64,000 bases of DNA, from contig NC_058337.1 in the NCBI RefSeq assembly GCF_905475395.1, positions 86,050,368 through 86,114,367 on the forward strand. Reading direction: 5' to 3'. Shown piece by piece: positions 1,073 through 58,496 of the stretch (position 1 is the stretch's first letter; every line of letters starts with the position of its first letter). The DNA comes from Chrysoperla carnea. Its lineage: Eukaryota > Arthropoda > Insecta > Neuroptera > Chrysopidae. The notes beneath the pieces are model-generated. The model saw only the letters and a list, made by a program, of their open reading frames with translations. It was not told the DNA's origin and made no database searches. Both the position numbers and the translations under genes were made by a program.

Positions 1073-4000
1073 TTAATTAGGAAACAATTCTTCTGATGGT
1101 ATTACTTCCAACATTTCACTCAAAATTGACTTGATAATTTGACTTGCTGTTTCATCAATAATTGGTGCTACACTTTGTAAAACTTCGGCAGAATTTTCAT
1201 TGAAGAAATTCATTGCAATATCGGCTGTCATAATTTTAAAACAAAATTTTGATTTAATATATTTAAATTAATTACTAAAAATTTTTAAAAACTAAAAATT
1301 TTTTGTTATGTTTATAGAAAAAGAATTACAAAATAGACGTGTATGAATTTTGTTTCTAAGCAGTAATATTATATTATTATCACAAGCTACTAAAAATATT
1401 ATTAATTATTTTTGAGAAAAACAGCCGGGGAGACGATGGCAACGACTTTTCCCCCTGTTTTAGAAGGTAATATCGTGATATTTTTCTCATTTATTAAAAT
1501 CTGGTCCAATTTCTTTTAACCAATTTTCATTTCATAGCTATTACCTAAATGTCAATTTATTGAACCAAATAGAACTACTTTGGGTTATTTTACGTCAAGA
1601 AGAACTCTTTGTGATTTTTTCGTAAAGCTCACCGTTTTCAAAATTCAAAAGCCATTTTAGATGTTGAAAATCAAAACTAAGAATTAAATTTTTAAGCTTA
1701 CCAATATCCTAAAATAATCTATGATCATCCTTTAACAAAATTTTGTAAAGTAGGTAATTAGAGTTTTCTTTACTCTAAAAAAAACCTTGTGTTTTAAGTT
1801 TTAATTACTAGATAATTTTCCTGTAACAGTACATGAGACAGAAATACTTCATTTTTATATGTTATCGTGTCACAATGTGTCTTATGGCCTAAGAGTATCG
1901 CTCGTGAACTGATATTATGGCCTAGCTTATATGTTATCAAAATAGGAAATACTAAAAATGTCTTTTCTTCAAAGGTTATTTTAGAATTTTTGCAAGCTTA
2001 TAAATGAAGTCTTTAGAATGCTACTCTCATTTGAAAAAGACCTTTTTGAAGTCTTTTGAAATTGAATTGTTAATACCTCGAAAACGGTGGGATCAACCAA
2101 AAAATCATAAATTAATAATTGGGCGTAAAATTCACCAAAAAACATAGGTAAATAGATCTAGTTCAAAATATTGAAATTGGACAGTTATCAAAAAGAAAAT
2201 TGATTTAACTCTTGTTCTTTATTAAGGAACGTCTTTTGAACGAAAGCATGCAAAGAAATGGAAACATGATAATTTTTCCAACGGATAATCTGTTTGTGCT
2301 CCTCTATTTGTGCACTATAATTCATTGACTATACCGATTGTAAGCTATCTCGTTAGCCATTTAAAATATATGAAGTAAGATGAATTTTTATGGACGTTCT
2401 TATAAGTATAAAAGAAAGAGGGATTGTGTGCTCTGTGTTACGGTGTGTTATGCTTATGTGTTCCTGTGTGTGATTGGTATCGCGTGGACGTGGGTACAAC
2501 TTCAAGTTATCAGTCTGACTGGCGATAAGAGCGTCCTTAAAAACTATTCTTATTTCATATATGTAATATAAATGGCTAACGATATGGTTTACAAACAGAA
2601 AATACATCTTTTACTGAAATAAAGAATACAATATATAATACTATTTCCTTTACCTGCTTGTTGATTTTTTGCATTTGATTCAACCAAATTCAATTTTCCA
2701 CCACCAACTTTAATTTTACTTGTAATTTGAGTCAATTTTAAACGTTTGACTCCTTTATCATCAATTTCATTTGATTTAAGATCTACAACGGCATCGATTC
2801 CATCTAGAATGTAAAAATTAACGAATTATTTATTTGTATCAGATATACATACACATTATTTAAATACGTACTAAAATTTCCGGTCATTTTTCCTTTAATA
2901 TTCAATGGAATTTGTAATAGTTTTCCATTAAGATCGTATCCACCACTTAATTTCAATTCTGGAATCTTTATTTTAACTTTTCCGTCCAATGTTTTAGGAT
3001 TTAAGCTGTAATAAATTTAATTAAATGAAAATATATATACTCATTTTTTTGTTATATCTTTCACTTACTTAACCTCTTCAACAATGAATTTACTTCCGCC
3101 CGCAGCAACAATATCAGTGAATTTTCCAGTAATTTTAATACCTTCCAATGCTTTGTCAATATTTACAACGTTTAATTTAAATGGATCTATAGGTGGTAAT
3201 TTGATTGATGGAATTCCTTTTTCTATTTCTGGACGTAATTTATTTAATAAAACTGTTGAACATTGATTTAAGTTTGGATCTGAACGTTTACATCCTGTGA
3301 TTGAATCCGCTATATATTGATGAAAATTTTATTAAAATTGCTTAATAAAAATTCTATTATTTAGGTGAACCGAATGTTAATACTTGTGAGGTTGTGAAGA
3401 ACCTTTGGTCTAGTGCACTTACGTAAATCATAGAGAGGTGACCTAAAAATTTTGACTCTAGATTTTTTGATTAAATCATTCAATAGAGAGTTATTTGGAG
3501 ACCTTTAATCTGAGATCGTACTGAGCCTTGATTTGCCAGCCCTTGCTTGGCTAAATAGGAACCAACGCTAACGTATATATCCTCGGTTTGCTAATTTTTG
3601 CCTAGGCCTCGGCCTTGGCTAGTTAAACAGGGCCTGATATACTTGTCTCACAAAAACGCAAGGGTAAGCAAACTGAGGCGTTTAACTTGCCGTTGTGGCA
3701 AATGAATAATAAAATGTCAGATTAATTTTTGTTTTTCTTTCCCCCAGGTTTGTTACGAAAATTCTAAACTAGGCCCAATGCTACAACAATCTCCACCCAA
3801 GCTTGAACTAGTATGTGTCCGGGTGTTTTCTCTATGGTACGATCTTCTGTAAAAGGATGTGAGCTATTTTTTAATGGTGTCTGTAGTAAGTAAAATGATC
3901 TGCAAACAGTTAACCCGAAATTTAAGGTACCAGTTTTTTAGGAATTATTGATAACATGATAATGGCCATAAATACATCTGTATCATTGCCTGTAATTGTG

Positions 4001-10528: not shown

Positions 10529-13500
10529 TTATGGGAACAATTCATCATACGTAAATTTTAATGTAATCTTATTGGCTATGTCTGTAAATACATCAGCTAT
10601 CGAACGTTCTAATGCTGGTGCAATTTCATTAATAAATGTCTGTGAATTATCATTAATAATTTGATTGACAGCTGGTCCTAATACTGGATCTCCATTAAAT
10701 AAATTACTAAAATATAATTTAGCTTTTCCAATACTTAATTTTAGTTTCAATCGATCAAATAGTAAATGTTCAGCATCGCCTTTTTTGATTTTATGCCCCT
10801 GCATTGATACGTTACTTTTATAATTTGCTAAAACAAAAGAAAATAGAATATAAAATGGCTTATATAAACATTTTAGGGTCAATCCTTTCAATCAGGAACT
10901 AGTTTTAAAAAAGTTTCATTCAAATAGACCGAGGGATTCTTGGTGGACAGTGGGTTACAGACCTTAAAATATAGTTTTGAAAAACGGGTTTTGCACTCGG
11001 TTTATTTATATACAGAGAGTCCGTCGTTTGTGAAATAATTCGAAAAATATTCCTCGGATTACCTTGAAATTTTCAGAGAATGTTTTCCACAATTTAATTT
11101 ATCTTTTTTCGAAGAAGTATGCAATTTTATCTCCTCTCTGTGTCAAGGTGACGCATTTGAGAGGAGTGTGATGGATATTAATTAGTACGTTTCAGATGTT
11201 ATGTATCATTTTGTTTCAAATGCTATAAATTACTTTTGATGATTAAAATTGCTAATGTGTTAAAATGTTTAAATTTTAGATAAGGATAAGGTAAGGCTTG
11301 AGCATGAAGCTGCGGCACTAATCAATTTTCTCAATAGATGCTAGTTATTTTTATTTTCTCTGTAATATATAAAGATGAAAGGCAAATGTTAAGAGAAATG
11401 TTGAGTAGGTTTATTTAGCATCGCTCTTTAAACCAACTGGTATTCCAACTTATGGTATTATAACTTAATTCTTGACATACAACTTATGCCCCCGAATTGG
11501 CTGGAGCCGAGACATGAAGGGGAGGAAAAAATTATTTTCTTCTCTTTTAAACATAACAGCGGTTTAAAGAAAGTTTATAATCGATTTTTATAGAAAATAA
11601 TTTTTGTGCACACCGAAACTGGATGGCGGCTTTTGAGCAAAGAATTCTTGATTAAAAAAATTTTTTTTCTCAGGAATGGCCGAATAAAAACTCCCTCTCT
11701 TTTGGGTGGCAACCCAAATTTACTGTATAAATCGGATATAAACTTTAATTAAATCCCTGTTTTGTTTAAAAGAGAAAAACATATTTTTTTTACTAGCCCT
11801 CCATATCTCGACTCTTGTTCATTTGGGGCATAAGTTATAAAGGTTAGAAATAACACCAGGAACTCGAATACCAAGAACCAGTTAGTTGAATTATTTTATT
11901 CATATAGTTCATTGCTAAAACTATAGCTATTTAGTCTATGTTTCAGAAATGTGCTTTGTATAACAATTATGATCAAGCAATATAGTTTTCAATCAAAAAT
12001 TATAATTTTATACAACTCAATGAATATTACTATATTACAGATGCAAAAGAGCGATCATCTATGCCATTGTACTCAAGTCTCTTTTCCCGAAGGATTGAGA
12101 TATTTTCTTTTGATAAAAACTAGTACATAATTTTTTTACTTACTAAATGTTCCATTTATATTTCCATTTCCATGTAAATTCAATAACAAAATTCTGGCAT
12201 TGAGATTATATTTACCTTCGAAATATAATTTTGGTAGAAGTATCTTAAAATCAAATTTATTGTTTTCTAGATCGGATCTAAAATCAAATCATAATGTTAG
12301 TGATTATATTTCTCAGTTTATTATTCAGTATATACTATAACCAATACATATTTGTTGTAAATATTGCCATCACTTTTTTTTGTTATTTACCAATTTTATT
12401 TTCTTTACGTATTCCTGGCGGTTCTTCACTCATTTTTCAAGGGCGTGAAATCATTATTTGGTTGGCGTGAAACTTTATAATTTTTTTAAGAGTTTTCTTA
12501 AATATTCATTGGTGGAAAAAATATTTATAAAGAAAAGCCATTTTCCAGAAATGAATGGTTAAAGTTGCATTTGAATTTCAAGCACTACGATTATACCCTT
12601 TACCTTATCGATTTGAAATTTGGATATTTTATAGGTACTCATATTCTATCTGGCCTGGTTACTTTTATTTTTCGAAAATCTTGTTAATTTTCCCAATTTT
12701 CACTGTTCACTTTTAGGTACTTTTTCGTATTCCACTATATCTAAATTTGAACAGTGAAAATTGTGAAAATTAACAGGATTTTCGATAAATAAAAGTAACC
12801 AGGGCAGATAGAATTTGAGTACCTATAAAATTTTCAAATTTCAAATCGATAGGGTAAAGGGTATAATCGTAGTGCTTGAAATTCAAATGCAACTTTAACC
12901 ATTCTTTTCTGGAAAATGGCTTAAGTAACACAGAGTATAAAACATATGCAAAATTCACGTGTATTTTGGTAAAGTAAAAATCGATTATGAATGAAAAAAA
13001 AAGTGATTAAGAAAATTATATACCGATTAATTATTCACACGAAATCTATGTAGGTACGTCAGACAATAATTAAATACATATAGGTGATTTAATTAAAATT
13101 TTATTAAAAAAATTTTAATACATAACTTTGTAGCAATTTGTAAGTAATTATTACAAAATCAATTTTATTGATTTTTTATAAAAATACTATTTTTTCCTCA
13201 TTAGCTACAATGGCAAATTGCTTTGAATAATTATTGTTAGAAATTTCACGAATTTAATGTTTCATTACATGTTCACAATTTTAATAAAAATTTTTTTCAT
13301 TTTTTAATTCAAGGAGTTGAAAATTAATATCTATCAATCGTGAAAGTTTGTGAGGATGTTTGGATGTTTGTTACGTTTTCACGCAAAAACTGTCGGACTG
13401 ATTTATCGTAACTTTACAGTACCTTATGCAATTGAACATTATTACTAGCTTATAATTCATCTAGCTACGATAACAGGAATATATCGATAAATCCACATTG

Positions 13501-13649
13501 TCTTACAATTGTAAATATTATTAATCCGTTACACCCATACATTAAAAAATTTTGAATATTATTAATTTCGAGTGTAGCAAATTCCGTGGACGAAGGTTGT
13601 CTAATTTTCCACGGAATGGAAGTATATTATCTATCTTACGAGTGTTAAA

Positions 13650-13683
<34 letters not shown>

Positions 13684-16600
13684 ACAACTAAGTTCTCTTC
13701 GTGGTCGCAAATGACCTAGACATTAAAAGCGACCTTAAATAAAAACAAAAAACAAAAAACTGAGTTAAATATAAACTGAAAAGAAAAAAACAAGTCTAGC
13801 AGTTTAACATAGCGTCTTTAACATTCGGGACCCATTAAAATCTACACCGGGTCAAATATTCCCAATAATGGGTCCCGACTATTATAGTCGCTATGTAAAC
13901 TGTAGGACTTTTTCTTTTTATTTGCAATTTATTTTTAACTCAGTCGGGTTTTTTATTATTTTAATAATGTTTTTTATTGTATAAACGTTATATCGAAAGC
14001 CAAGTATAGCAAATCTACTCCTTTACTACATGTTTTATACATTTGCGTGAATGTATGATTTAAAAAAAAATTATAAATGGCGAATAAAATTATTTGAGTA
14101 CATCGTTGAGGTTCATTAATAAAACGATTACATATATTTTTTTTTAACAATTAAGAAAATGATAGAGTTTTTTCTGTAAGTTCAAACTACAATAACGAAA
14201 TAATTATTTCAAAGTTCATGAGTTAAAAATGGCAACATATTTCAAGGCTATTTCAAATTATCCTAATTTTGTGTGCCAATCGTTTACATTATTTCTTAAT
14301 ATCACAATATGTAATATGAATACCTAATAAATCAAATAGTTTAATAGTTTAATAGTTTAAAGTAATAAATTATTGCAAAATAATTGAATTAATTAATAAT
14401 TTTTTATTAATTTGATTGAGTAGTATGATTATATTTATACCTTAAGAGCCAGCATTCCTATTATTACAATTCCTATTAAAATAAGAAAAAAGAAAATATC
14501 GACCTTGTTCAGTGTTTGGAATTATTTTTAGGTACGAAAAAATAATTCCAGAAAATATATGATGGCTCTATTACTATTTTTAGTGAAGAAAATAACCCGG
14601 AATATATCATCAAATGTGGAAAAGTGGTGGAACTGCTCCGATTTCAATAATTCTTATTTGCACGTGTTCCTTAGATCTTTAGGAACATTCAGCCGCATTA
14701 AACTCTGCATAGTAATGAAAAATGAGGGTAGTTTTTCCACAATCAAAGTACTCCAAATGGGAACAGTGAAAAATCAAATTTTCACTCCGAAAATCGTCTC
14801 CTAAAAGTTTCCGAGGTCAATGATCATTTTCTCATTATTCTTTACTATGCAGAGGTCAGTGCGGTTGAATGCTCCAAAAGGTCTAAGGAACACGTACCAA
14901 CAAGAATTTTTGAAATCGGAGCTGTTTCACCACTTCCACATTTTCCGTTTTATAAATGTACTACTATATTAAGAGTTTAAATTATTAAAAAAACTTACTC
15001 CAATGTTTGAATCACAAAATTTGCTGGTCCCCATACACGTACATTAGAGATCAATGCTTCTATATTGGCACTCTTTGGTCCACGAGTTAGAGAAACTTCT
15101 GGTATTTCCATAGGTTCTATAGGTGGTACTTCTAATTCAGGTATACCTTCTAATAATTTTGGTCGTATTTGTTCCACTGAATTTCGTATGCAATCATTTA
15201 CATTTGGTTCAGAACGTTTACATACTTTTATATAATCAGCTGAAATAAAACAAAAAAAAAACTGTTAAATAAAGTTTTCGGAACATTTGGTTGTATGAAG
15301 AATATACAGGGTACTTTTTTAAGTTGACATATGCTTGAAGCTCGAAATATAACTTTTATCGAAAAAAATGCTTTATTCAAAAAATTTTGGATGTATATGG
15401 CGTACATTTTAGGCAGACAGTAAACTTGGCCTAGGTTTTCAAGCTCAATGAAAAGCTCACTTTACTCCATAACTGGTAATCGATAGATGCACACTTTTGT
15501 TAAAAGTTGTTATTGATTAAAAAGTAATATTTTATGTTCGTTCAAATCGATATTCCTATAGATAACAAAAATATGAGGGTCTTCATGTTAAATGCGACAC
15601 TGTATAATAAAATAATATAAAAAAATTATAAAAACACAAATTTGTGGTTATCTATTTAATCGTGCATTTTAAAAGCCTGAAAATTCGAATGCCGGAAGGG
15701 ACCGTGCATGGCCTCAGTCGACTTGATGCAGAAAATAACTACAATAAGTTATTAGTGTAGAAGTTTTTGGTACATAACTATAATTTTTGTTACTTTTAGT
15801 AAAATTTGCTGATGATAATAAATTTTATTACTATACACAATTTTTTCAAGTTCACTGATCATGTTCTGCTTGAGAAAACAATGAGCAAAATTTATTTTTT
15901 AATAAAGTTGTTAGTTTAATAGCTAAGAAACGTATAAAGTGTTTTATAAAAAAACGTTTAACAATTGAGGTATTCAGTGGCGGATTTACCAGCAGGCTGA
16001 GTAGGCTGGAGCCTAGGGCGGCAAATTTTAAGGAGCGGCAAATTTAGTTCATAAATTTTTTATTTCGATTGACAAAATTTAGAAAAAATTATAATACACA
16101 CACAAAATACGAATTTCAAAAATTATAGAGGAATTAAAATATTCAACAAAAACCGAAATATAGTCCTATATACAGTGCTAAATAATAAATATCTCAAAAT
16201 CTCTGCATAAACAATTGCTAAACGCTTTTGATTATAATGTAATGATCATGAATTTTTAGAATATCGCAATAGCGATTCCATATTATAGTCGAAATTTAGT
16301 TATTTTTACATATTTTCTTCACTGATAATTACTATAATTTTTTCTCCGTGTACCTAATAATTATGAGATCTCCTTACACAATTCAATCTTGATACAATAT
16401 CGATGGTCTAATCATGATTGCTGCAGCAAGTTTGCAAATTGTCAAATTCTATTCCAGAAAGTTATTTCTTTATGCGTAAAAAATACTGACTAATTTTTAT
16501 TAAATAAAAAACTAGTTCGATATCTTATAGAGATTCAGAACAAGTATAGTCTTTTTGGTACATGTTTGAGATATTTTTTGCATAAAATATTGTTTTTTGA

Positions 16601-22600: not shown

Positions 22601-25600
22601 CAGACTAAAGAAAAATTATTTTATAAAACCTGAAATTAAAACTAAATAATTAAAACAATTTTATTCACTGGCTCTATTTTATTCATTAATAAAATAAATT
22701 TTTTTTTTGCGTTCATAATTATAAAGGCTTCGATTTATATTTATTTTTTATATAACTAATAAAATGAATTTACACATATGACGTTTACCATAGTTTTACA
22801 ATACAGCGGAACTCCGGTAATCCAACCCCTGGCTAATCCGGCCGTTGTAATCCGATATGCCAGCATATAGAATCTTATGATTGGATTTGTTTTTTGTCAG
22901 ATTACAAGGTATTCTCTTGTAAAAAACTCCGGACTATAGATGGTTTTAGGCTAATCTCCATAATCCGACAAATTCGATACTTCGACACTGCCCATCATCC
23001 ACTATAATTTATATAGTCTTCATCGCGTTTCCACCATAACTTTCTAATATGCCCAATTTCAAAGATCTGTGTACTTTTGATGATTCTCAAATTGTTTCGA
23101 CTATGGCTTGAGTGCTGGATTCATTGAAATTGAGTTTCAATTTTCATTTTAATCAGGACAATAGTATACTTAAAAGAAATAACAAAAAGTTTGCTATTCT
23201 CAATAGTCAAGAAAAGTGATTTTATTTTTTACAATTTTCCTCCATTTTCAGCTCCTTTGGTAGTTGTAAAATTCTTGCTACTTTTACCCACATATATTGT
23301 TGTCAATAACTTTCTTTTAACATTTACAGCACGCACTCAAGCCACGATTAAAACTTTAAATTTCTTTTATAATCAAATTTACAACAATCTTTGAAATTTC
23401 GCTCATTATGGGCCCTCCACCTACAACCGCAATTAGGGTATCAATCTTCGATTTGAAGAGAGAGGTGAAAATTTAAAATTATTGTATTCAACTTGGAGCT
23501 CAATTCAGTGCTCGGTGAACAGGTGCACTCTATCCCTGTTTACTGTCTCTAAGACGTTATTCAGAGCCATAGCTAACTATCTGATTTTTCAAACAGTAAA
23601 GCTTATTTTCAGTAGATACCTACTGATATTCAAGTTCATAGCCGATTATTATTAATTTTGATAACTTTAAAGACGAATAGCCGAGCATTCATTATACACC
23701 AAGCGTACAAAACAATTCTTCAACTTATGTAAACGTATATGAGATAAAGCCATGCAGAGTTGCTAGCCATAGTAGCTTTCAACTTCGTTAACGATTTGTG
23801 CCCAAAAACAGTTTGTGAAACTCCATGAAAAATACACAATGTTTACTCATTAGTCGAAGTCTGGGAAGGTCCACAATGCACGAAGAAAATATGCCATAAA
23901 ATTACTAATTACTTTAATGAAGTACTTACGCCACTTTATTTAGAATACTGCTTACTTTATTCTACATGATTTTTTGAAATCATTACCAAATTCTTTGAAT
24001 TTTAGAGACACTATAAAAGGCGTTTTCGACTCAAAAATTTTCAACGAAATTCCGAAAAAGTTAAACAAATAATTCATGTATTTCAAGCTGAGTAAAACAG
24101 CTAATACTAACAGACGAAGTCAAGATACTATATGTACACTACAAATAGTTTATTTAGATTTAATACAGAAATTTAAAGGATATAGAAGATAATTTTGAGT
24201 GCTACAGTTTCAGTATTCTACCTACTACAGGAAATTAAAAAAGTATCATTAATCTAAATTTGCAAATAGTAATAATTATATTCACAAAAAACATAACATA
24301 ATTATGTGTTTAACATAATTATAACAGTTAGTATAAAAAATTGTTTAAAATTATTATAATATCTTTTCCCGTAGAGTAGGATGTGTCCGCATAGTTATTT
24401 AGAAAATCATTTTATTTTATTAATGATTTTATCGATGATTTACTTAGCTTTGAACTAATTAAGAAATTGAAAAAGCAACGATACAAGATTTTCTTTTGTG
24501 TATTTTTACAATTTGTTATTTTTCTTTTCTCACGAGCGTAAATGAAGTTAGAAAAATAAAAAATTTTTTACACACAAAAAAAACCCGGACTTCAAAAAAC
24601 ACTATGCCAAAACAAATTAATTTGCACTAGCAAAAAAATAACGATAATATAATTTAGTTACAATTATTGTTATTTTTGGAGTCGGTGTCAGCCAAGGAAA
24701 CAACTGTGACAGGCAAACTTACTGCATTAACTTGGCTGACACCGACTCCAAAAAATAACAACAATTGTAACTACATTATATTATCATAATTTTTTTTACT
24801 GTTTAGTGCAAATTAATTTGTTTTGGAATAGATTTTTTTTTATGAAAAGTTTTTTATTTTGTGATTTTTAGTGAATCTGAAGTACATTATTTGCCACTAA
24901 AAAATCATAATCGAAATCGCTTGGCATTATATGGAGTTTTTCGTCCATTTATCGTGCACATACATAATGCAAATTAAAGACTTGATTATGATTTTCTCGT
25001 GGATGCCATTGTCAGAACTGAACCAAATTGAAATTGAACCATGCGGGACCAATCCTCAAAATCGGTTCATTCAGTCCAAAGTTCTGAGGTAACAAACATA
25101 AGAAACATACAGTCGAATTGAGAACCTTCTTCTTTTTTGAAGTCGGTTAAAAAGCATTCAAGAACACTAACTGAATGTTACTGTGTTAAAATAATAACTC
25201 CAGTAATAAGACGTCAATTTAAGCATACACATTTTTTAGAGAACCAAGTTTTATATCACATAAATATGAAATTGGAATCAACTATTTCCAATTCTGCTTT
25301 TTCAGTGCTTCAAATGATGGTGGCTGATTATCCTGAGACAATCCGCTGATAATTTCAGCTCCTCAATTATTTTGAGAGGCTGAAAATACCTCATTCATAC
25401 ATATACCATGTACCACATTAACTCAACACAACTCAATTTATATTGTGATGGCAAGAAATGAACCCGCATAGGCAACCTCGTATGGAATTAGAATAAGCAC
25501 TTACGCATAATATGAGATAGCAACAAAGTTATTTTCGAAACGAATATGCACATATACCATACGCTATTTACGAAAAATTTTAAAAGCGTTTTCTATCACG

Positions 25601-28600
25601 AACATAAAAAAATTAAAATATACTTAGATTCTTCTATGAAAAAACAAATTTATCTTGAGATAACTTAAACATCTTTTCCTATTTATAAATAGGAAAATAA
25701 ACAAATAATTAACATTCATTTTAAAATATGTCTTTTATTAAATTTATTAAAATATTTTCACATTTGCGGTTTGTATTTAATTTAAATTATAATTAATTAT
25801 GTAGGTAATAATTAAATTGTATTAAAACAAGTGAAAAAAAAAAACAATTGACTGAATTCCTTGTTGAAATATCATGTATAGACAGTGTTGATTATGGATT
25901 CGTTTGTTTTTTAACGTCATGTAAGTAAAGAAAGATAGTCAATCTTACACACAAAGTAATACTACAAAGTAGTATCATTATTCTCATTTACTTAGTGTAC
26001 ATCGTACTAAACAAACACATACATAAATACAAAATATGTATACTTTAATATAATACATATTATATTTGTTCTAATCTAATTTGCGCTCTCACGGGTAAAC
26101 AGTGATGTTTACGCAAAAATGTTTGGTACAAAAGTTGTTTATTTTATAAGAAACATTTTTTACATTTAAACTTTTGTTCTATCTCTTAAGGTTTACAAGA
26201 TGTGTCCTCCAGACCCAAGAACCAATTGAAAAGGACTAATTAGGTGATTTATGAACAGCTATACTTAAGTTTTGTTCGTAGCAACAATATTTTTAAACGT
26301 TACAAACTTGGGACTAAACTTTGCATATCTTGATATATTTTATATACATAATATACCTACATGGTATAAAAAATAAAATAAAATTGTTTTAGAATTATGA
26401 TATTTATTAATAAATTCAAAAAAAGATAAAAACAACAATTGTATAAAAACAATAATTAAAAAAATTAGATAACAGATTTGAAGTTAGTCGGAGGAATTAT
26501 ATTAAAGTTAAATATTCAGCTAATTCTACCTTTTAAATTTTTTAACCGACTTCAAACAAAAACGGAGGAGGTTATCAATTCGACTGTATTTTTTTTTTTT
26601 TATGTTTGTTACCTCAGAACTTTTGACTGGGTGAACCGATTTTGATGATTCTTTATCTGTTTGAAAGCTGGTGCTTTCCGTGTGGTCCCATTTCCCATTC
26701 TGGTCTAGTTCTGACAACGGCATCTATGAGAAAACCATAGAAGTCTCAAATTTGCAGCAAGTATGCACGACAAAAGGACGAATAACTCAATATGAGGCCA
26801 ACGGATTTCGATGATTCTTTTTTTAGTGACAAATTACTTAGTGTACTTCAGATTCATTAAATATAAAAAAAACTTTTGACAAAAAGAAAACCGACTTCAA
26901 AAGAAAAATTTTTCCAAAATAAATTAATACGCACTAAAAAGTAAAAAAAATAAAGATAATATAATGTAGTTAAAATTCTTGTTATTTTTGGAGTCGGTGT
27001 CTGCCAAGCTAATGTAGCAAACTGTTCTGTTAGAGTTGTTTCCTTGGCTGACACCGACTCCAAAAATAACAAGAATTTTAACTACATTAAATTATCGTTA
27101 TTTTTTTTTTACTTTTTAGTGCGTATTAATTTATTTTGGAAAAATTTTTCTTTTGAAGTCGGTTTTCTTTTTGTTAAAAGTTTTTTTTATTCTAATTAAA
27201 TATTTGCCAAGGGTACCTTCCGGATGAAACGATGGCCAACTTTGGCATGGAACCACATACATAGTTTTTGTAGTAGAATTTGGTTTTTTGCCACAATAAA
27301 AACATAACTTTTGTCTGAAAACTTTTTTTCTAGACATCAATTTTTGACACCTGCTTTCAAGTATTTTCAAAGTTAGTTCTCGAAATACTAATTTTTTGTA
27401 CATATATTTATTTTTTTTTTATCGTTAAACAAATAACTTTAACTACATTCTTTTTTCCATGTGTTTTTGAGAATTATAATCTAGGATAAAAAAATTCCAA
27501 ACAAAAGTAGGTAATACTTTTACGGCAAAGAATCGGAACCTACTACATAAAATAGGAAGTCTCACTCTCATAATAGGAAGTCCCATTTAAAAAGCAAAAT
27601 TTTGACACATTTTGTTCATTTCCCCTGAAAATAGAAACCACCGTGTCTTACAGGTTTTTTTTTATATTCCAATCCGTTTTTAAAATAATTAGCAGCAATT
27701 TTTTTTAACAGCTTGCGTAAAAATTAGCAGCAATTTTCTTTTAACAGTGTACAAACAGGGACAGTAACAAAAACAGGCTTTGTAAAAATATTACAGAAAA
27801 AATTTATTGGTTTCTATTGATCTGATTACAGCAAACATTATATTGGTTTTCGATGACGTCAACAGTGTCAATGGAAATGTGAACGATAATGACCCTAAGC
27901 AACTTTCTAGAAGGCAAGCAATTGGGTTATATATACAAAAAAAGGCTTGAGAGAATAACAAGAGCTGTTTTTATTACAGCCCATTAATTCTCAAGATTTA
28001 CACAATATGTTTTAATCACTGTCAGATATTTACTTTTCACCTTTGTGAGATTTATCTTGTCGATATCCATGATAAATGAGAGAATATAATACCCTAAATA
28101 GGAACTAACTAATCTGTTTAATAATCATCTGCCACTGGAAACATGTCACAAAAATAATAATTCATTAGTAAATAGTAAGTAGTAAAGTAATTCATTTTAT
28201 TTCTCCTTTTTTTAGTTAACAAAAAAAAAATTAATTACTTGTCTCTGTTCAAGATAAAGTATTTAGGATCTTTTTAAAATTAAAATAAATAAACTTCTTT
28301 AAAATTTTAATTTGTTATGGAAAATTATTCCAATCTATAATTAAGAGAGGAAATTTTTTATATTATTGATCTCATTATTAAATTAAATGTTTATTTTTAA
28401 ATTTTAATTGAAAACATAGCTAAAGGTGATTTTTTAAAAAATCTCCAAATAATATTATTTAAACGGATTAGAATCTCAAAAAAACGGTAAAAACAGGTAA
28501 TTTCCAGGGGTAAACGGGTAAAAAAATTGTTTTTAGTTTTATTTTTCGAGGTCACTTTCTAGGTCAAATAGGGTCAAATATATCAACTTCATTTTTTTTT

Positions 28601-52100: not shown

Positions 52101-53466
52101 ATAAATATAATTTATTAAATTTTCTTGTTACAGCCGATTATATTCATGTTTGTAAACGAAATGATCCACAATTCGAAAAATGTTTAGCAGAAAGCATAGA
52201 AAACCTACGACCAAAATTAAAAGACGGAATTCCAGAGCTAGGAGTACCATCAATTGAACCGTTATACATTCCCGAAATTGTAGTAATTGGTCGTGAAAAT
52301 TTCCATGCCGTTGGCAAAGATGTATATGTACATAACGTTAGTACAGTGCAAATTCGAGATATAAAGTAAGTTTCATTTTTGCTTTGATTATTTTGGTGTC
52401 CTTGGAGTAGTCATTTAAACAGTTTTTATATTTTCCAGAGTTGATCTTCCAAATCAAATTTATAATGTAAAAATCTATTTACCGGAATTAAATTTTGATG
52501 CAACATATGAAGTAAATGGTCGTATTTTAGTCATTCCATTAAAAGGAAAAGGACCACTCACTGCTAAGGCAACAAATATCAACGCAGATGCCGTATTAAA
52601 AGGCAAATTATACGAAAAAGATGGTAAAGAATATTTAGACTTTGAAACACTAAACTTAAAATTGAAAATTGGTGATTATGAAGTACATCTAGAAAATTTG
52701 TTTGGCGGGGATAAACGATTGGGTGAGTCTTGAAAATTTTTAAGTCTTAAAACTTTAAAAGTGAATAGAGCTCCGAAGAGTGAATAGAATCAAAAACAAA
52801 TTTCTCAACATCCTGTTCATCAAAGGGAGAACGCGTAATAAACCTGTGTTACATTATACAATTCCTATCCTGGAGAATTATTGATGGACATAAGTTTTAA
52901 AATAAATAAAATTGGGGAGCTAGCCGTAGTCAGAAAGTCGCGGTGATGGAGATCGATTTTTTCTAGTTTCTGGTTCTTCGTTAATTAATAATCCCCGTTA
53001 ATTACATGTTAAAGTCACGCCATTAGTACAATTATAAAAGAAAATGAAAGGAAGTCTGGAAGTGTCAAAAGATTAATATTGCAGTCAAACTGAGTAATTA
53101 TTAAAAAAAGAATTTAATTATAATGTCATTACACAATGAAAAATTGCGAGGAAATATAAATTTAAGCCTTCCATTTATATTATATAGTTGTAACACAATA
53201 CCCTTAGCTACTGACCTCTTGTGAACAGATTATAAATTACTAAATCTCAAAGTGATGCGATTGAAACCAATTTATATATTGATTGATATATACCTATTGA
53301 ATATTTTGCAGGTGAAGTTACTGACCAAGCTTTGAATGAAAATAGAAGAGAATTCATTAAAGCATTAAAACCAGTTGTAGAAGACACAACTTCAGATGTT
53401 TTATTGAAAATAGCAAAAGAAATTGTGAAAAATTTCTCTTACGATGAATTATTCCCAACAAATTAG
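46159..53466 (+). CDS. Gene C: takeout/JHBP-family secreted protein, four coding exons, 248 aa
   Basis: Coding exons are 46159-46234, 52134-52365, 52439-52722 and 53312-53466, 747 nt including TAG. Introns are 5899, 73 and 589 nt, all GT-AG and in frame. Exon 1 gives a signal peptide (core FYLLVIIGFASAV) and a phase-1 donor. Exon 2 carries the cysteine pair CKRNDPQFEKC and the LRPKLKDGIPELGVPSIEP segment. Exon 3 (284 nt) equals the 134- and 150-nt exons of genes A and D joined, so the intron between them was lost. It holds GRILVIPLKGKGP and NLFGGDKRLG, both family hallmarks. The last exon ends YDELFPTN. The predicted role is a secreted carrier of a hydrophobic ligand. C is the only plus-strand member: it is divergent from B (16.8 kb apart) and convergent with D (3.7 kb apart). 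An ATTAAA just after the stop (53475-53480) may be the poly(A) signal. Confidence 0.9.
47256..47695. mobile_element. Mariner-type MITE with about 90-bp inverted repeats, 440 bp
   Basis: The left end GTTGTCTAGCTAAGTTG and the right end CAACTTAGCTAGCCACCC are inverse copies. The match runs about 90 bp inward, through ATATGGAAAA and TTATTATAAGG, to the inner AGCTCTGC/GCAGAACT. TA flanks both ends (47254-47255 and 47696-47697). It lies in intron 1 of gene C, with no coding capacity. Confidence 0.85.
49090..49215 (+). repeat. R2 foldback fragment
   Basis: ACAAAGTGACTTTAACAGTC followed by GGGAAAGATTTGAGTCGGG matches one half of the R2 element. The other arm is missing. Confidence 0.6.
50334..50811 (+). 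repeat. R1 repeat, copy 5, internally deleted
   Basis: Same ends as copy 1, but TTTACCCGTGAG is joined directly to TAATCAACACTG, so about 90-110 bp of the inner 3' part is missing. Confidence 0.8.
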
Positions 53467-57170: not shown

Positions 57171-58496
57171 TTACTTTGGAAATAGCTGATCGTACGTAAA
57201 TGGTTCCACCACATTATTCGCAATATCTAAAAATACTTTTGATAATGCTTTTTCAATTACAGGTAATAACTCTTTTAAAAATGCATCAAAATTGGAATTT
57301 ATAGCGCCATTTACAACATCACCTAGAATATAAAATCATATTAAAAATTTTTGTACAATAATTTTCTTTTTAGCAAGTTTTGTTCCAGGCCCATAAAAAA
57401 TGCAAACTATTGTGGTTTTACGCTAAGCGTAAAGGGAGCAAAATAATACCAATGTAGTTGACATCTTGGATATCGTTGTGTTTATGAATATGTCAACGTA
57501 ATATTCTGACTTCCGTCATATTGGAAACTGATAACAAAAAGTTACTCAAATCAGCGTTAACTCCACTATTAATGAAAATCAACTTATTGCGTTATGTTTA
57601 GTTGATCTGGGTCGAGTAATCACAGGCAGGAGTGGCTAGAGGCCCTTTTTTGGAAATCGAATTTACAATTTTACTAGTTAATTTACAATCTGACGAAAAT
57701 TACAATATTATGGTGGCAAATACAATCATATAGCCTGTCAGCTCGTAACAGAAAAATATAATCAATTTTTTACAGTCTGCCAATGATAGAGAACAGTTAT
57801 ACAGCTGCAAGCAACAGAAAAATTTATAAAATAATAAGGGCAGGCTGTAAAAAATTGATTATGCTTTTCTGTAATGAGCTGACGGACTAATAAAATGATT
57901 TTTTTATTTAAGCCGATTTTTCGATTCGAAAATTTTTTTTGAAACATAGATAATTTTTATTCTCTATATTTTATTTTTGAAAATTACCAACCTAAGACCT
58001 TTTCACCGCCAAATAAATTTTCCAATTTAATGTTACCATTTCCAACTTTAATTTTCAAATTTAATGATGTAAAACGTATTTTTGTTACTCCATCTAGTTC
58101 ATATAATTCACCTTGAACTGAAACTCGCCCTTTACAATTTGCTAAAAAAAAAAAATTTTTTAAATTTAATCTTTCGATTTATTAAGGTAACAGTTTGTCT
58201 ATTGCATGTTCCTCATGAAAATACGCAATAATTTCGAATATAATTTCTGTGTTTGATAAAAGGTCGTCCGTCGGTTACTTACGCTTAATACTATTAAATA
58301 GGTATTCAACACAAATCGATTTTAACGAAAATTTAATGAATACTTTTTAAGGCTATACTTACTTAAATTTCCAAATAATGGACCACTACCACGAATAGGA
58401 ATAAGTAAAATACGGCCATCAAGTCCATAATCAGCCTCAATATACAAATGTGGGAGATCTACATCACCAACGTAAGTTTGCTTCTCGTTATTGACT
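57171..58496 (-). CDS. Gene D: takeout/JHBP-family protein, 3' part only (last three coding exons)
   Basis: Exons in transcription order are 58363-58496 (134 nt), 57992-58141 (150 nt) and 57171-57322 (152 nt), matching gene A exons 3-5 in size and phase. They encode the last 144 residues. Visible hallmarks are GRILLIPIRGSGP, NLFGGEKVLG and the carboxy end YDQLFPK. Acceptors and donors are GT-AG; the donor at 57991 is the weaker G|gttggt. The acceptor before 58496 calls for an upstream exon of about 240 nt with the CKR cysteine pair plus a signal-peptide exon. I scanned the minus strand from 58498 to 64000 and found neither, so they probably lie past the right edge behind an intron of more than 5.5 kb. 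Sequence in the middle exons is closest to gene C, which faces it tail to tail. A minus-strand AATAAA near 57012-57017 may be the poly(A) signal. Function as for the other members: secreted carrier, ligand unknown. Confidence 0.85.
57732..57890. mobile_element. Foldback MITE in intron 4 of gene D
   Basis: The left arm (GCCTGTCAGCTCGTAACAGA, TAATCAATTTTTTACAG) and right arm (CTGTAAAAAATTGATTA, AATGAGCTGACGGACTAA) are inverse copies of about 50 bp at roughly 85 percent identity, flanked by TA-rich DNA. It sits inside the 669-nt intron between the last two exons. Confidence 0.75.

Follow-up and report, generated by a model that had tools for sequence, protein, structure and literature searches.

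Foldback elements consist of long inverted-repeat arms around a short centre, and in the classical ones the arms are internally repetitive. Kolobok and Sola3 elements also have TTAA target duplications. The TTAA-specific miniature inverted-repeat transposable elements (MITEs), such as the coral CMITEs, Wuneng and Microuli, are outlined as short elements with inverted or subterminal repeats that are flanked by TTAA duplications (PMC2872659). The hairpin RNA (hpRNA) loci of Drosophila also have a long duplex within one molecule and a possibly transcribed location. The hairpin discussed here lies in a stretch of 64,000 nucleotides of the Chrysoperla carnea genome (assembly GCF_905475395.1, contig NC_058337.1, positions 86,050,368 to 86,114,367), which is called the window below. 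With high confidence, we read it as a probably inactive copy, truncated at its right end, of a non-autonomous, palindromic, TTAA MITE-like family, and as having landed in an intron of a takeout/JHBP-like gene. The family shares the long arms and short centre with foldback elements, and the TTAA duplications with the TTAA-specific MITEs. However, CMITEs measure about 100 bp, whereas this family measures about 634 bp and is palindromic over almost its whole length. Unlike the hpRNA loci of Drosophila, the window hairpin belongs to a dispersed repeat family.

A dispersed palindromic family with TTAA ends

The stem of the hairpin has 12 mismatches in 185 pairs. Nine of these fall within the first 174 pairs, counted from the outer ends, and a stem cut at 174 pairs leaves a centre of 39-40 nt. 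The pair count thus bears out the initial annotation, which had described about nine mismatches over 174 bp and a 39-nt loop. Folded as RNA, the hairpin reaches -268.7 kcal/mol, compared with a mean of -69.7 kcal/mol in 100 shuffles (z = -44), and is therefore far beyond chance. The claim that it is unusually clean holds in part. It is the longest foldback listed in the window (arms of at least 60 nt, spacing of at most 2500 bases), but three others are 92-95% complementary over 66-99 nt. Its extent also had to be redrawn: the hairpin is as described, but the element extends leftward as far as 12417, and the window has no outer right arm to match this extension.

The 388-nt hairpin has 1131 first-look candidates in the genome of the window (559 Mb in 337 contigs), and 40 of them were scored. 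These comprise the window and 39 other places with 84-94% identity, dispersed over six contigs. The 39 are long matches (about 306-388 nt of the hairpin), and three of them fall more than 15 nt short of the whole query. As the best matches to the window hairpin, these 40 copies are biased towards two-armed and similar ones. A 27-base tip motif, with up to three mismatches, has 185 matches in the genome and none in a reversed control; a few loci hold it twice. For a 26-base end motif, the counts are 148 in the genome and one in the control.

Alignment of the flanks showed that in many copies the arms extend outward beyond the hairpin. The full-length member L002 measures 634 bp from TTAA to TTAA inclusive, has 308-nt arms and ends in TTAAGRCGGTTC; a repeat finder reports 316-nt arms and an 18-nt centre for it, with 8 nt of each arm outside the TTAA. 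The ends of the family read TTAAGRCGGTTCTTCACTCATTTTTC. Fourteen copies have both ends readable; TTAA stands at both ends in nine of them, and by eye the 14 show no consistent flank match longer than the TTAA. Such flanks are as expected for a transposon with TTAA as its target and duplicated site.

The other properties expected of a MITE are also present. There are many dispersed copies with common ends, and the family as a whole has a target-site duplication of fixed length (TTAA), which is not intact in the window copy. The size of L002 is below the limit of 800 bp that is given for MITEs (PMC5199201). The sequence appears non-coding, since no stop-to-stop open reading frame (ORF) of at least 90 aa overlaps the window copy. 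Numerous dispersed copies with the same ends are what the initial annotation had named, on the genomic side, as speaking against its preferred hairpin-RNA locus, and they support the alternative that it had offered, a foldback insertion.

Decay of the window copy

Relative to L002, to which it is 93.9% identical over 507 columns, the window copy has lost about 120 nt of the right arm (Table 1). A genome pattern search lists its left end with three mismatches. It can probably no longer be mobilised.

Table 1. Features of the window hairpin, the element that contains it and the surrounding gene (window coordinates)
Feature	Position	Strand	Remarks
Copy of the palindromic TTAA MITE-like family (~634 bp), truncated on the right	12417..12922	+	506 bp present
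Left TTAA target-site position	12413..12416	.	reads TCCT (decayed); end alignment of copies, row L045
Outer part of left arm	12417..12534	+	matches outer arms of other copies; right-hand partner missing from window
Inner left arm of hairpin	12535..12719	+	185 nt, 94% complementary to 12738-12922
18-nt centre between arms	12720..12737	+	27-base family-marking motif around centre at 12716-12742
Inner right arm of hairpin	12738..12922	+	stops at 12922; L002 runs ~120 nt further to its TTAA
JHBP-like exon match of probable host gene	14998..15243	-	tblastn E 4.3e-17; one side of intron
JHBP-like exon match of probable host gene	12142..12273	-	tblastn, query = in-window JHBP piece, E 1.5e-6; other side of intron
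C-terminal JHBP exon match of probable host gene	10532..10828	-	Pfam PF06585 JHBP, E 6.5e-29; also tblastn

The stem of the window copy carries 12 changes, or about 3% of 388 nt, that its four closest relatives (L006-L009) all lack. Nine of them break a pair that is intact in the majority of the relatives. They account for all mismatches of the 174-bp stem, and in three cases a G-U pair remains. The other three of the 12 changes create a pair. The changes are private only with respect to L006-L009, and the window base at 12539, for example, also occurs elsewhere. The 16-base end of the window's arms has 15 exact matches in the genome, among them its own two arms and 11 in other loci of the family. 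Since all nine mismatches are absent from the four closest relatives, the cleanness of the window hairpin is inherited. It looks near-perfect because the source palindrome was near-perfect and because only about 3% of changes have accumulated since the split from the closest relatives.

The history of the locus may be pictured as follows. The source element would have been a near-perfect palindrome, and the hairpin would look clean from that origin. A transposase acting in trans would once have moved the element by cut and paste, and it would have inserted in the intron of the takeout/JHBP-like gene. The copy would then have gathered its roughly 3% of changes after parting from the four relatives, lost its right end and its left TTAA, and would now be immobile.

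The initial annotation had also considered that the insertion might be very recent, in which case the perfection of the hairpin would be due to youth alone. With an arm divergence of 0.061, the third lowest of 59 two-armed copies (median 0.130), the window copy does resemble a young insertion. Nevertheless, this explanation is very improbable, given the 12 stem changes shared with none of the four close relatives, the loss of about 120 nt of one arm and the decayed TTAA.

Relation to TTAA-specific superfamilies

The TTAA target duplication of the family is as expected for piggyBac-type elements. The ends of the latter carry a CC[C/T]T motif, according to the outline in PMC2872659, whereas those of this family read TTAA followed by GRCGGTTC. 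The genome contains 125 matches to piggyBac-type transposases. Of six that were read with roughly 3 kb around them, two have paired ends of TTAA followed by CCCTT, one has TTAA followed by CCTCTT, and three have no convincing ends. Because the CC[C/T]T motif is missing and the family ends were not seen near the piggyBac-type transposases that were read, the family is not filed under piggyBac; it behaves like a TTAA MITE. Kolobok and Sola3 are other users of TTAA targets. Both are listed among the insect MITE superfamilies (PMC5199201).

Eight of the piggyBac-type frames are open, 490 aa long and of near-equal score (G000:C5:26029769, C1:87194237, C2:78241806, C3:8852507, C3:79403804, C5:43661738, C6:18713393 and C6:23489367), which suggests recent activity.

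Arm likeness and the hairpin-RNA reading

Were the pairing of the arms important, the arms within a copy would be expected to resemble each other more than arms re-paired across copies do; 5000 shuffles were used to assess this. To the 40 best matches, 60 copies were added, drawn from 100 listed of the 185 tip-motif matches; L023 was dropped, since the tip motif was not found in it. A copy was counted as two-armed if at least 140 of 181 nt could be aligned in both arms. This holds for 59 of the 99 copies placed by the tip motif, and the other 40 were dropped, some perhaps for divergence and not for loss. The comparisons of 37, 31 and five copies, the count of rare changes and the mirrored-change counts of that set omit three of the first 40 (L015, L022, L024).

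In the 31 copies of the main lineage, arm divergence is 0.1272, compared with 0.1274 after re-pairing (2216 of 5000 shuffles at or below). In the 46 copies that remain without L014 and two subfamilies of five and seven copies, it is 0.1521 compared with 0.1517 (2931 of 5000). The arms of ordinary copies decay independently, with no sign there that pairing is preserved. With these copies included, arms of one copy are more alike than re-paired ones: 0.1191 against 0.1292 for 37 copies, 0.1384 against 0.1471 for 59 copies, and 0.1400 against 0.1471 for 58 copies without L014, with none of 5000 shuffles at or below in each case. The excess arm likeness sits in the subfamilies and in L014, and could be caused by nested subfamilies, by arm copying or by constraint. 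Selection on pairing was considered as the cause of the cleanness. The re-paired arms give no sign of it in ordinary copies; for the window's subfamily and for the source lineages, it cannot be told apart from arm copying.

The hpRNA locus preferred by the initial annotation would be an intron hairpin that Dicer-2 cuts into 21-nt small interfering RNAs (siRNAs), which regulate a target gene in trans. The window hairpin has the long, strongly folding stem and the probable intronic place of such a locus, Drosophila hpRNAs are summarised as inverted repeats of young evolutionary age (PMC10317233), and arm likeness within the window's subfamily is slightly in excess. We nevertheless regard the proposal as extremely improbable: the hairpin matches a dispersed repeat family, its nine stem mismatches are all absent from the closest relatives, and ordinary copies give no sign of preserved pairing. 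Rfam returned 25 weak matches, all below the gathering score and mostly to assorted microRNA models. These sub-threshold matches lie at 12595-12862 of the window on both strands, and resemble what such models would generically return for a long, AT-rich hairpin. From what can be observed, the hairpin is not a purpose-built RNA gene. Of the two options in the initial annotation, the foldback insertion stands, and the hpRNA locus is left with the shape of the hairpin and its probable intronic position.

A less specific role is conceivable, in which transcripts of the host gene or of other copies incidentally form double-stranded RNA and give rise to siRNAs against the repeat family. Many copies share the sequence, intronic ones would be transcribed together with their genes, and hairpin-derived siRNAs are presented as an established class in Drosophila (PMC10317233, PMC5392987). 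However, a 2025 study of Aedes aegypti reports that the siRNA pathway affects transposon expression to a limited extent (PMC12076837), and overall we consider such a role rather unlikely.

Several observations weigh against the reading of the hairpin as a decaying TTAA MITE-like copy. The target-site duplication of the window copy is not intact. An autonomous partner did not come to light for the family: its ends are absent from the roughly 3 kb around six of the 125 piggyBac-type matches, piggyBac being the one superfamily searched, and the sole long end pair that was read (locus L160, see below) has no ORF above 127 aa. Finally, in the window's five-copy subfamily, arm divergence is 0.0838 compared with 0.0916 after re-pairing, with 42 of 5000 shuffles at or below, a frequency near the 1/120 with which the true pairing itself would be drawn. 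In this subfamily, arms may therefore have been preserved or copied to some extent.

Mirrored changes and possible copying between arms

Some differences between copies are mirrored, in the sense that both arms have changed together. Compared with the main lineage, the five-copy subfamily has 10 differences in the left and nine in the right arm, and five of them are mirrored, with 0.17 expected. At stem position 33, the 59 copies have A/A in 37 cases, T/T in seven, G/G in five and C/C in one, while six are unmatched and three gapped. Over the same 59 copies, alleles present in 6-12 copies stand on both arms 48 times, compared with 20.0 expected; without L014 and the two subfamilies, the count is 16 and the expectation 14.6.

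The clearest case is L014 (G000:C6:15115319-15116306). Relative to the main lineage, 12 positions of its left arm and 16 of its right arm are changed, and 10 of these changes are mirrored, with 0.36 expected. All ten are found at positions 14-94, a stretch of 81 bp that contains a single one-arm change (position 62), and in which position 36 is matched, though it is unmatched in the main lineage. Past position 100, none of six differences is mirrored. The best explanation of the block is that one arm served as the template for the other, through template switching during replication or through arm-to-arm conversion. Alternatively, L014 may be a member of a small subfamily outside the sample.

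Single copies of the main lineage have between zero and two mirrored changes each. Summed over 31 copies there are 14, compared with about 6.8 expected, and five of them agree with T/T at position 33. Counted separately, the rare changes include 14 double-changed pairs (7.4 expected), nine of them complementary (about 2.5 expected), and six of these nine are in L014. Arm copying in source elements would account for the mirrored subfamilies; selection for pairing in the source elements is another possible explanation. At least one of three arm-specific bases is swapped in six of the 59 copies, and in L032 and L104 two of the three are; these are too few to conclude that the spacer was inverted, which would be a further sign of template switching.

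Template switching homogenises the arms of inverted repeats in yeast (PMC8604942), and has been put forward as an origin of compensatory changes in RNA genes (PMC8794818). The homogenised arms and multi-base compensatory changes of such quasipalindrome correction are like those seen in L014 and in the lineages here. The published cases are from RNA genes and from coding genes of yeast in which the repeats are short (same sources), whereas the present case is a transposon family with stems of about 180-308 bp. Among the papers listed in searches on these subjects, none obviously reports, by its title or abstract opening, gene conversion or arm homogenisation in MITE palindromes. We suggest tentatively, with a confidence that stays a little below even, that palindromic MITE lineages remain near-perfect through occasional copying from arm to arm, in situ and in the source elements, by template switching or conversion.

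Asymmetric and unusual copies

Asymmetric copies are frequent in the family. Long palindromes can become stable through partial loss of one arm. Among the 60 copies picked by the tip motif, 39 fall below the two-arm cut-off, some perhaps through divergence. A further 40 loci were drawn from 76 matches to a 16-base end motif, for which the reversed control gave 14. Half of them, 20 loci, show no match to the family; the other 20 have an arm, and 13 of these are one-armed. A larger autonomous element behind the one-armed copies was considered and rejected, since seven of eight loci have no second arm out to 9.9 kb, and one has a second arm of 80 nt. No stretch above 300 nt is shared by the DNA that adjoins the arms of one-armed loci.

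Locus L160 (G000:C6:7243000-7249700) is an inverted duplication whose units, of at least 347 bp, lie about 6 kb from each other and hold two partial copies of the element together with shared flank. Its end pair (C6:7243181-7249431) was discarded as an autonomous element, because the duplication reaches beyond the element and the largest ORF has 127 aa. Seven matches to the 16-base motif, all on one strand and some about 3.7 kb apart, lie at G000:C3:42983864-43016906 (L052, L053, L054, L077). They probably represent a tandem array of another sequence, as the four loci that were read do not match the family. Another tandem array, with a period of about 84 bp, is found close to one family copy (L003, 161-1155). 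Viral contigs gave no match to one exact 31-base pattern of the family.

The probable host gene and other features of the window

The element was initially placed inside an intron. JHBP-like exon matches on the minus strand indeed flank it, the nearer one at a distance of about 140 bp, but the placement in a takeout/JHBP-like gene is probable only, as it comes from protein matches. JHBP/takeout-like matches occur at four places of the window, 1079-3310 (-), 10532-15243 (-), 52127-53457 (+) and 57177-58480 (-), which apparently form a local cluster of the gene family.

The same intron contains further foldbacks at 14622-14935 (86% complementary) and 13740-13963 (74%). A second foldback of about 360 bp, at 11478-11839, lies between two other exon matches of the same JHBP-like gene. 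Several inverted repeats of up to 123 nt and up to 95% complementarity are grouped at 24594-27201.

Implications

The finding itself is ordinary, a decayed palindromic transposon copy in an intron; what deserves to be retained is the pattern of mirrored arms. A candidate hairpin-RNA gene loses its main support, and the case shows that no function is needed for a clean hairpin to arise in an intron. As a natural experiment, the family provides numerous copies of a single long palindrome, so that arm copying can be distinguished from arms that decay independently. It bears on how palindromic transposons keep their shape, and it cautions that stem covariation is not necessarily a sign of RNA function. 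If the proposed arm copying is correct, it would renew the inverted repeat, give rise to mirrored subfamilies and produce base-pair covariation that imitates selection on RNA structure.
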